DNA of 64,000 nt from Mytilus galloprovincialis (lineage: Eukaryota > Mollusca > Bivalvia > Mytilida > Mytilidae), in contig NC_134838.1 in assembly GCF_965363235.1 (NCBI RefSeq), forward strand, positions 6,143,001 to 6,207,000. The letters are read 5' to 3'. The notes under the pieces are model-generated. The model searched no databases. It was not told the DNA's origin and saw nothing but the letters and a program-made list of their open reading frames with translations. Shown piece after piece: positions 7,650 through 13,600 of this stretch; positions within the stretch are counted from its first letter, which is position 1; each line of letters opens with the position of its first letter. Position numbers and translations under genes: made by a program.

Positions 7650-10600
7650 TCACGTGTCTCGACAGTCCATTACCATTTTTCTAAATCTCTGAGCAGAACG
7701 TGGCCTCTCTAAAGGAGGCGGAGTAGGTACATGTGTAATACCCTGATCTGATGGCATACCTAAAGTCACAATCTGTGCTCCATTAATTCCCTCCTTCATT
7801 GTCATAACCGTACGTCTACCCCTTACCTGGTTGCCTGAACCAGATTTGAGTCTATCACCAGGTGAAGTAGAATTATCAGCTGACTGAATTTTTATATCAT
7901 GTGATGCCTTTAAAGGTCTATTTTTAGAAGTGGAAGACAGTACAGTTGGATAACCTTGTCTTGGTGAACTAGTAGTTTTTGGTTCTAGAGGAGTTTTAGG
8001 TGATTCACAGTCTCTGGTTATAATTGGAACAGGTGGACTATCTATGTTTCTTATTCTTATTTTTGGAGATTCAATTGGTCCAAGTTTCCTAAAAAAATAC
8101 CAACAGTTATAAAGTTTACAATCTGACTCAAACAAAAGACATAATACAACAGATGAAAATTTATTCTTTTTTTTTATACTGGTATCCATGAAATCCTTGT
8201 TCTTACATATAATTTCAAATACAGCCTGTTAGAAGATTTGATAAAAACAAAACTAGAGGCTCTAAAGGGTCTGTGTTTCTTACCAAGGTCAATAAGCGTA
8301 TTCAACAATGGACACTCTTCAACATTTAAGACTAGAATAGAATTCATGCTAACAAAACTTCTTTTGCTGATCATATTTTCTGGTTTTTGTTCTCTCTTTC
8401 TTCTTTAGTTTTGACCCAAAACACAAAATAAGGGTAAAAAAAAATGTTGATTAAGGGCAATGACTGCTGATATTTACAGTGTCTATCCATCAATTAAAGT
8501 TTGTAAGATATAAGGCAATATTACTCCAATAAGAAGACATCTGACATTTTTGTAATCAATAAAAAATATGTAATACATTTTCCCTCTTTCTCTGGTTGAC
8601 AGGCAGGTTCATTAGACACATTTTGTTTTATTAGATACGGTACCCCAAATTTTTTTTTAATTAGATACCCCAAAGATTCTGACCAAGTTCGGTAAAATTT
8701 TAATCAAAGTCATAAACCTTTGCTGACAAAATTTTTAATACTTATTAGAGAAGGAAAAATAATAAATTGATCATGCTGTATTAGATGGAACTCTAATTAT
8801 TTTAATAACATACATAACAGCATAACCACAGAAAAAAGGGTAGATAATATTATTATTGTAACTGCAAAAAAATATATTCTCATAAACCTTTTCCACTGCT
8901 CAAATAATTGCCAAATGTATTTTAATTTCATGACACAAGCTTTCAGCTGATTATATTCTATTTTCTAAACATCTTATATAATTTCTAAATTTAATGTTCT
9001 GCTGATAAAAAATCTAGTGATGGAGAGTGGATGAATACCCCCTTAATTTCCTGTGCTGATTCCTGACATATTTACTCACTTTATTGAAGCCATATTTCGA
9101 GGTCCTGTACCCTTTTTAGACACTGAGACTACAGTGTTGTTCAGCAGTTCTTTTTCCATCTTGGATCTTTCTTGCTGCAAATCTACAAACACATTAAATA
9201 TTCAAAAGTATTTATTTCTTCTTGTTCAACAGGTTTTTTTTTATATAAAATTCAATTGTGCAATCATTTCTTGTTAATAGAATTTTTAAAATTCATACTC
9301 TGTCATGATAATATATACAAAAATTAATGCATCAAATAATACAATATAATTATAATTAAATAAATGTTTGTGAAAAGATTTGTTAAATACTCCTTATTTC
9401 ATTTGAATTTTTTCTATTTTTTTTTATTACAAGCAATTGATCTTGTACTCCTTCAAAAGGTGAACACTTGCACTAGTGTATATTCCATAGTAATTAAGGT
9501 CTAAATTAAAGACCAGGTAATTAATTTTTAAGTATGGATATCCTTTGCAGAAAGTATACTAAAGAGGGTGGCAGGACCTTTGTAGGGATCAGGTGTCTTT
9601 AAGCTCGGGATTGATCCTTTTTTCGGGATCTGGATTTATTTTTTCTAATTTCGGGATGTAGGGAATTAAATTTCTTTAAATTCAGGACCTCAGGATTTCA
9701 TGTGTTGAAGCCGGGGATTTCAGGATCAGAACACCTCCAACCCTCCCTCATCAAATAGTGCAGAAAATCATTTAAATTTGATAAATTAAATCATGGTCAA
9801 TAAAATAATAACTCCAAAGGCCCTGTATATTATCATACAATAGTGATTCACAGTTTTATAATTGCGAAAGCATTGCATACCAGATAAAGCAGCAAATTCA
9901 AAAAAAATTCAAAACAAAATGGTTTTGAAAATGTTTAATCGTGGTAAATCTTAAAATCAGGAATTTCAAATCTGACAGTTAAGTCTGGCAACTATGATTG
10001 TTTTCATACCCTTGGTTTTAAAGATTTAAGATTTTTACAAACCTATTACTGTAGGTTCCCTGGACACTGTGCCCAGTTTTTTTTATTTCTTACCTAATAG
10101 TGTAGGTTCCCTGTATACGGCACCCAGTTTTTTTATAACTAACCTAACAGTGTAGGTTCCCTGTATACGGCACCCAGTTTTTTATTACTAACCTAACAGT
10201 GTAGGTTCCCTGTATACGGCACCCAGTTTTTTATAACCAGTGTAGGTTCCCTGTATACGGCACCCAGTTTTTTATAACTAACCTAAAAGTGTAGGTTCCC
10301 TGTATACGGCACCCAGTTTTTTATAACTAAGTTAACAGTGTAGGTTCCCTGGATACGGCACCCAGTTTTTTATTACTAACCTAACAGTGTCGGTTCCCTG
10401 TATACGGCACCCAGTTTTTTATAACTAACCTAACAGTGTAGGTTCCCTGGATACTGTACCCAGTTTTTTATTACTAACCTAATATTGTAGGTTCCCTTGA
10501 CACGGCACCTAGTTTTTTTTATTACTAACCTAATATTGTAGGTTCCCTGGACACGGCACCTAGTTTTTTTTATTACTAACCTAATATTGTAGGTTCCCTG

Positions 10601-13600
10601 GACACGGCACCTAGTTTTTTTTTATTACTAACCTAATATTGTAGGTTCCCTGGACACTGTACCCTGTTTTTCTGCCCTGAATTCAGCCTCATCATCAATA
10701 CATTCATATAAGAATCTTATATCTCTTAATAATATCTCATTTTCCTCTTCTAATGTTGATCTAAAATCCACAAGATAATGAATAAACATTATGGAAATAC
10801 TACTCAATAAAGATGCAAAAAATATCAAAACAGAAAAATCAGAGTTGAGAGAATTTGAAAAAATTACAATGTACAGGTTTAAACATGCAGCTTACTGAAG
10901 CAATATAGTTTTTACTCATTGTTAAAGGCTGCTCAGTGACCTATAGTTGTTTCTTATCCTCATCACTTAGTCACTGGTAGATAATCATATAATGCCTCTT
11001 TATCTTTTATTTTATAGTATTGCAGACTAAAAAACAGTATCACAATACTAGTTTAACCTCACAACATATTCATATGCCTGTTCCATATCTGGACCCTTGT
11101 TAGTGGTTGTCTTGTGTCATATAAACTTGTTGTGTTTGTTTTGGAGAACTTGGTGTTGATTGCAAAGCTCTTTTTTTATTTTCTGTTAATTCTTGTAGTT
11201 CTTCAGAAGAGACATTTAAAGCTTGAAACATTGTATAAACCTGTGTCTATAATTGTAGAAGACCTCTTAATAATATGTGTGTTGCGTTGTTGTCTTATTA
11301 ACATTTTCTCCATTAATTCATTAAGATCAGAAAGTTTTTACACTGTATTTTCCAAATATATTGCATGCATTTATTATTGCAATTTTTTAAGAATGGACAA
11401 AATTGTGAGTTTAATTATTGCATTTTTAGGAAAATCTTCATACAGATATTGTATCAGATATCATAATATGTGTTCTAATTAATGCAATACTCATCCAGTC
11501 ATTAGTACCTTAAATGTTGGACACATTCATCAAACTTCAGATAATTCAACATATCATTCATTGATTCTATTTCTTCACTTAAAGTGGATGCAAATGAGGC
11601 TCTGAAAATAAATAAAATAGGAAATATATTGATGTACTTGTTTCTGACATACTTTTGTTCATTCATAAATATATAATACATCACTAAAAATAATAATAAT
11701 GATTGGTATTCATATATCTGTTTTAAATATAAATTAGAATTGTTTCTAGACTGTTTAAGAGCTGTATAGGCCTCAGCAGCCAAGTGGTGTGAGTTATAGA
11801 ACGATTAAATCACTAGTCTCTCAACATTGAGGTCATGGGTTGAAATCCTGCAATTGGCAGGTGAGTTCAAATCCAATCTTAGTTGACTTAATTGTTAGTT
11901 TTTCTACCGAAGTCTGTGGTTCTCTCAGGGCACTATGGCTTCCTTCAACAATTTAAGAGTTGCAAATCATGGAAAACTTTAAGATTAAAAAATTCTGAAG
12001 TAAGGGTATATGTATTATACATAATGACAATTATTATAATATTATATTATATACCTATCACTACCAGTAGGACTAGTTATCATAGGTGTATCTCTTCCTT
12101 CTCTAGAAAATGCTGAACATGGTCGTGCAGAGCCAGGCCTCCCTGTTCCAGGTCCTACAGTATTAAAGTTTAGTTTGAATTCATTATTATCGTGGGGAAT
12201 CAATTTCGTGAATTTTTTGTGTACAGATAAACCATGAATTTAAATGTTCAACAAATTACACATTTTCTACAGGGTTGTATGTACACATATGCAAAATCAA
12301 CTTATGAAATCAAATATTCACGAAAATGCAAGTTCTACTCACTCCATGAAAATTGGTACCTACGAAAATACTTGAATTCACAACATACAAGAAGTAAAGA
12401 AGTGGACATTTGTAAAAAATATTTGCAGTACATTTACTTTATATTTTGTGCTAAAATTACTGTTAAACATATAGTAGAATGAATATATATATAACATATG
12501 AGTTGTTGTCTGTAGTTTTTTGAAGAAACACTGGAGATCATAAAAAGTGAGAAACAGTTTAAGATCTATTTCAAATATACTGATAAAAAAACTTGTAGTT
12601 ATACACTCATTTTTTATATGCATGTTATGTTCATATGTTCACAGAAAAATTTCATTTAATTTTTTGTTCAGTAAAAATATTATTTTTATAATTATATGTG
12701 ATTTTAAATCACATACATGATTTGCTTAAATACTACCTTGAGCTATTTCTAAGATACATCATCAATTACATGAACTTACTTGAATACATCATCAATTACA
12801 TGAACTTACTTGAATACATGATCAATCACATGAACTTACTTGAATACATCATCAATTACATGAACTTACTTGAATACATCATCAATTACATGAACTTACT
12901 TGAATACATCATCAATTACATGAACTTACTTGAATACATGATCAATTACATGAACTTACTTGAATACATGATCAATTACATGAACTTACTTGAACTATCT
13001 AATGCATAATCAATCACTTCCATGTTATATTTTGTGTTTAATACCCTGTCAGGATTCCTAAAATAAAAAACAGAATTATTTAATGATCAGTGTTTTCCTT
13101 ATTAATTTGTGTAGAAACCCATCCAAATGAAATATGGGTAAACAATGGTAAAGAGAGCATTCCTTCAACTTTGGTGGACAGTTGTCTCATTGACAATCAT
13201 ACCACATCTTCTTATTTTTATATACATTGTACCAAGGCTTCCAAAACAGTCATATATTCCGGTCATGACTGAAACTTTCATAAAAAGTCCGGCTACTCTC
13301 AGCCTCAAACGGTCAAATAGAATTGGTTTGCCACTTTTAGTTATTCAAGGCATTTTTCATAAAACGGTCCTTTCAATTTTGACCAACTATCGATCATTAA
13401 AAATGTCCGTTTGTGGCTTTGGACATGTCCGCTTGGGCATACTATTTCACAAAGATATTTCGGTCATAATTGGGTTTATTACAACAGATGCAGCAAATTT
13501 AAGATTCTTTGAAGTGTCTCAGTTAGTCTAATTCTCTAGATACATAAATGTACGGCTTGGTCTTTAGCTTGTGTACATCAATAAAAAGTAGAAAAACACG

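Follow-up and report, generated by a model that had tools for sequence, protein, structure and literature searches.

A candidate mirage minisatellite at the exon 6 donor of CCDC24 in Mytilus galloprovincialis, with similar arrays at kinesin and myosin exons

Tandem repeats that lie over exon-intron boundaries were named "mirages" in the Adh3 gene of lancelets. Further lancelet examples are found in the globins BflGb6 and BflGb9 and in troponin C, with similar imperfect repeats in PGBD5 (PMC3087553; PMC3902484; here and throughout, the literature is cited from excerpts). Mirages are stated to leave regular splicing undisturbed (PMC3087553; PMC3902484). Their units measure 10–72 bp in Adh3 and ~150–160 bp in the globins (PMC3087553), and a title in the reference list refers to length polymorphism or somatic instability of the lancelet Adh repeat. 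Here, we describe an array of this kind at the exon 6/intron 6 boundary of CCDC24 in the bivalve Mytilus galloprovincialis. It is located in a stretch of 64,000 nt, referred to as the window (assembly GCF_965363235.1, contig NC_134838.1, forward-strand positions 6,143,001–6,207,000; coordinates are counted from the first letter of the window). We consider it very probable that the array is a mirage minisatellite that was seeded at this boundary and is tolerated because splicing takes place at the exon-proximal donor.

The exon 6 donor array and its gene

Tandem Repeats Finder (TRF) reports a tandem array at 10035–10671 with a period of 49, 13.0 copies and 88% matches. Splitting of the minus strand at the GGGAACC core yields 13 head-to-tail units, each made of ~36 exonic nt from the 3´ end of exon 6, a donor, and ~7–10 nt of A-rich intron start. 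The TAG/GT donor (the slash marks the junction) is retained in 11 of the 13 units, as GTTAGT in nine and as GTAAGA and GTTTGT in one each. One unit has lost it by mutation to CTTAGT, and another, with an 8-bp deletion, is left with a poor GTTATA (U1 pairing -2.6). The original prediction, made from the DNA letters, of about 33 nt of coding sequence amplified about 13 times with a donor in most units was accurate in these respects. The elements are as follows:

10035–10671, minus strand: exon 6 donor array, 13 units of ~49 bp (TRF and unit breakdown)
10627–10632, minus strand: exon-proximal donor GTTAGT, copy 1 (frame and phase; a distal copy would bring a stop into the exon)
10037–10042, minus strand: most distal donor copy, GTTTGT, in unit 13, reading into non-array sequence (unit breakdown)

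Pairwise identity among the 12 full-length units is 0.69–1.00, which argues against a chance origin of the array. Units 2 and 3 are identical, and unit 13, at the distal end, diverges most (identity of 0.69–0.79 to the other 11 full-length units). Judged by sequence, the array appears to have the main features of a mirage minisatellite: The unit spans the exon-intron boundary, and many, not all, of the units keep the splice signal. Its unit length of 49 bp, and that of 30 bp in a second array of the same gene, fall within the range given for mirages (excerpts of PMC3087553).

Past the first junction, the frame reads EPTIL-G-stop (GGT TAG), in line with the predicted truncation after EPTIL upon use of a distal donor, and the read-through contains many further stops. 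Consequently, an intact protein requires the exon-proximal donor. In this minus-strand gene, exons 3–8, when joined, form a single open frame of 309 residues. The product matches the CCDC24 family (Pfam PF15669) with E=7.2e-19 and 69 bits against a curated cut-off of 27, and the match and the open frame together bear out the original assignment to exon 6 of CCDC24. A search of the whole genome with the PF15669 profile gave two matches, both within this gene (exon 2 and exon 6). Because the match of the 309-residue product stops at residue 128, just short of the exon 6/7 junction, the evidence for this junction is phase and the open frame. The exons and the second array are:

15655–15819, minus strand: open reading frame (ORF) containing the probable first coding exon, its end only approximate
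14979–15140, minus strand: exon 2, Pfam positions 23–80 (hidden Markov model (HMM) match; splice sites only approximate)
12990–13057, minus strand: exon 3, ending AGTTCAA/GTAAGT (open frame)
12754–12994, minus strand: second junction array, eight units of 30 bp from the exon 3 donor (TRF and unit breakdown)
12055–12154, minus strand: exon 4 (open frame)
11509–11601, minus strand: exon 5 (open frame)
10633–10760, minus strand: exon 6, 128 nt, ending ...REPTIL G/ (TTAG/GTTAGT), the last ~36 nt being part of unit 1 (frame and phase, PF15669 HMM matches)
9080–9182, minus strand: exon 7, starting /AT TTG CAG (D LQQER), in a phase that fits exon 6 donor copy 1 (open frame)
7650–8088, minus strand: exon 8, the last, with stop (open frame)

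The ORF at 15655–15819 resembles the N terminus of vertebrate CCDC24. In the neighborhood of the gene, a period-43 array is found upstream of CCDC24 (16206–16376) and lies next to one of its units in inverted orientation, such that a palindrome is formed (16150–16376). Further away (24691–41600, minus strand), ORFs resemble, by eye only, a MAP3K1-type kinase gene, with the candidate kinase domain near 24.7–25.1 kb.

Boundary arrays at kinesin and myosin exons

The frequency of boundary arrays was estimated in a sample of 104 HMM matches to kinesin and myosin exons from the same genome. For myosin, the best 30 of 90 rows were used with their flanks. The kinesin search returned 124 rows, eight of which represent two visibly repeated exons (L070 and L071) that were chosen for their repeated appearance. 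These exons, on contigs C1 and C3 within the sampled contig range, were counted once each. Merging of the remaining 116 rows left 105 regions, of which 65 (72 rows), taken in contig order, entered the sample. The rows are HMM matches rather than proven exons, some containing stops or spanning an intron, and some derive from neighboring or similar gene copies, so that they are not fully independent.

Junction-crossing arrays occur in 10 of the 104 matches (95% interval 4.7–17%), seven at donors and three at acceptors. By family, these are nine of 74 for kinesin and one of 30 for myosin; without the two picked kinesin exons, the count is 8/102. The final counts were made by hand reading, the automatic junction picker being doubtful at L109, L119 and L125 and having missed L079. 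The arrays, with unit lengths and copy numbers, are:

L071, kinesin: donor array, 118 bp, 2.8 copies
L079, kinesin: donor array, 43 bp, 7 copies
L109, kinesin: donor array, 101 bp, 1.9 copies
L112, kinesin: donor array, 90 bp, 4.7 copies
L130, kinesin: donor array, 65 bp, 5.8 copies
L136, kinesin: donor array, 120 bp, 3 copies
L070, kinesin: acceptor and exon-start array, 133 bp, 6 copies
L119, kinesin: acceptor and exon-start array, 82 bp, 2 copies
L125, kinesin: acceptor and exon-start array, 97 bp, 2.6 copies
L055, myosin: donor array, 47 bp, 3.1 copies

The least clear case is L079, where the array as called by TRF starts just beyond the donor, its first copy having been identified by eye. 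At L109, the donor may be GAT/GTAAGT or a GTAAGG further on, either one lying within the array. The arrays of L079 and L112 extend past the end of the sequence stretch analyzed. Two candidates were not counted, L134 with an array that begins 80 bp beyond the end of the match and L050 with a weak 33-bp repeat within the exon. At L070 (G000:C3:107861000-107863000), six 133-bp units carry a pyrimidine tract, the acceptor and the exon start, and the last copy continues into the exon. The 120-bp unit at L136 (418–777) looks almost wholly exonic with AAGGT at both ends, a geometry close to the tandem-duplication model of intron gain.

Arrays are not enriched at the edges of the matches when coverage is profiled by offset with L070 and L071 left aside (n=102): On the 3´ side, five matches are covered at offset 0 and 4–7 at offsets 50–340, and on the 5´ side, two are covered at the edge and 1–2 beyond it. 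The CCDC24 array is one among a number in the genome, and arrays cross exon edges about as frequently as they occur deeper in introns. This base rate bears on the second array in CCDC24, which clearly shares merely ~5 bases (TTCAA) with exon 3. The probability that at least two of the seven CCDC24 donors lie in arrays is ~0.076 at a rate of 7/104, 0.060 without the two picked exons, and 0.048 using a count of 5/96, the rate being a rough one from a small, partly non-independent sample of two families. Against such a rate, two junction arrays in one gene are mildly unusual rather than compelling, and the argument against a coincidence does not hold; given thousands of genes in the genome, genes with two such arrays are expected.

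In a rough test for a genome-wide excess of donor repeats, no excess of the triple AGGTAAGT motif was found (351 matches, 419 for the reversed motif); the counts are of overlapping triples, not arrays, and AGGTAAGT differs from the CCDC24 exon 6 donor. Two other arrays of the genome have composite units. The one at G000:C2:7981163-7981587 has a ~42-bp unit that is like a donor, a short pyrimidine-rich stretch, an acceptor and an 8-base exon (GTAAGT...TTACAG/CGGCTGAG), and the unit of the one at G000:C2:55459410-55459652 is like a donor, an acceptor-like CTGTACAG and a 21-base stretch up to the next donor.

Origin, tolerance and alternatives

Both edges of the exon 6 array coincide with short A runs:

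10667–10671, minus strand: A5 run of exon 6, bordering the array on the exon side (sequence)
10032–10036, minus strand: A5 run in the intron at the distal edge of the array (sequence)

Together, they flank the array as a direct repeat of 5 bp, at which the first duplication may have occurred, although an AT-rich sequence such as this one has many short A runs. The anatomy of the units indicates that a short stretch across the exon 6/intron 6 boundary was duplicated, with slippage or microhomology repair between the A5 runs around the donor as the probable mechanism. Growth by unequal exchange or slippage among the copies may have followed, since neighboring units are near-identical and the unit at the distal end is divergent. 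Splicing at the copy next to the exon, to which the frame points, would make the extra copies intronic and leave the protein unchanged, and the array would then drift with little constraint. The most distal donor copy is possibly the older intron start. It is our guess that exon definition or exon length makes the exon-proximal copy win; constructs with duplicated splice sites have given mixed results.

Several observations weigh against this account. Use of donor copy 1 is deduced from frame and phase. The U1 pairing of copy 1 (-8.2) is equaled by five other copies and exceeded by unit 12 (-9.4), and any advantage of copy 1 is therefore not apparent from the donor itself. Divergence of the edge units from homogenised inner ones, as in mirages, is clear for unit 13 and only mild for unit 1 (identity 0.77–0.90), with unit 9, which carries a deletion, excluded from this comparison of edge and inner units. 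In the kinesin and myosin sample, donor sides have more arrays than acceptor sides, both at junctions (7 vs 3 of 104) and per offset within 340 bases (4–7 vs 1–2), a surplus which may mean that position matters. Finally, array coverage is 2.3% in matched coding sequence (464 of 20,079 bases) and 3.1% in the flanks (4,528 of 144,608 bases; first 96 matches), and arrays are present at three of 102 match midpoints, such that exons are less free of arrays than strong purging predicts.

Among the alternatives, a regulated poison-exon extension is unlikely. Distal donors would here compete with the proximal one, EPTIL-G-stop transcripts would be degraded, and array length would tune CCDC24 output. 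The 11 retained donors, five of them matching copy 1 in U1 pairing and one surpassing it, would suit such a device, as would the immediate stop past the first junction. However, the donor does not stand out within the unit by its conservation: Of the 47 hexamer windows, 27 vary as little as the donor hexamer or less. The comparison, of 13 related units, has little power, and poly-A length inflates its figure of 2.6 changes per intron column. Moreover, functionally unrelated kinesin and myosin genes have the same architecture. These two observations favor tolerance over a special device. The many intact donors could also be read as a splicing buffer, i.e., spares that replace the exon-proximal donor if it is mutated. 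This is highly unlikely, as splicing at a distal donor keeps GGT TAG in the exon and would not rescue the full protein unless the stretch itself changed; for a protein-coding product, the present frame contradicts it. The proposal of a splicing buffer or regulatory device has in this way found no support, and the fallback that the array is simply tolerated is the best-supported reading.

It is quite unlikely that the array is an intermediate in the remodeling of intron and exon, in which copies of the boundary may serve as raw material for an additional exon or for moving a splice site, a model put forward for the globins of lancelets (excerpts of PMC3087553). Each unit does contain coding sequence, and most contain a donor, but no AG in the unit is preceded by a clear pyrimidine tract, by eye, and the read-through has many stops. 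A dispersed satellite, which had been named as an outcome that would overturn the prediction, or a transposon-borne repeat inserted at the junction is extremely unlikely. Tandem arrays do make up ~6% of the window; the exon 6 array, however, yielded no second match in the 1,384,861,812-base genome when its full length and a 147-bp part of it were searched for with very common words skipped, and the coding end of exon 6 itself serves as unit 1.

We lean slightly towards the view that this genome is pervaded by minisatellites spanning exon-intron boundaries (about one in 10 of the sampled exon matches), that its spliceosome, faced with two to a dozen near-identical sites, regularly selects the one closest to the exon, and that mirages are general in repeat-rich animal genomes. 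In that case, the genome would amount to a large assay, provided by nature, of how splice sites are chosen. Most studies of the competition between identical 5´ splice sites have relied on built constructs; if about one exon in 10 carries an array, the transcripts of a single species could show whether exon proximity, exon definition or site strength decides. Annotation may suffer as well, gene prediction by settling on an incorrect copy and repeat masking by obscuring genuine exon ends.

Relation to described systems

Within the open-licence texts searched, mirages were found in print for lancelets only, and no report of boundary-spanning arrays in bivalves was found among the open-licence full texts. 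The metallothionein genes of earthworms have minisatellites within intron 1, and a boundary-spanning repeat was not found in the excerpted account (PMC12783039). In the Rogers model, introns are gained through tandem duplication of exon segments containing AGGT (cited in PMC3087553), and a case of intron gain by tandem duplication is described for potato RdRp (PMC4974935). The Rogers model and the CCDC24 array have in common a tandem duplication that involves splice signals. In CCDC24, however, the intron and both of its ends pre-exist, and duplication merely lengthens the intron.

The host animal differs from that of the lancelet mirages, with 31% GC in the window and a genome of 1.38 Gb, a lower GC content and a larger genome than in lancelets. 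The splicing of lancelet mirages was tested experimentally, whereas the CCDC24 array is known here from its sequence. The likeness to lancelet mirages, as excerpted, lies in a splice signal in many but not all units and in an authentic boundary at the edge of the array; donor-side and acceptor-side cases are found both in lancelets and in our kinesin and myosin sample. The excerpted lancelet accounts state no frequency across a sample of exons (PMC3087553; PMC3902484), for which we obtain 10/104. What is new relative to the lancelet work is the host setting and the frequency across sampled exons.
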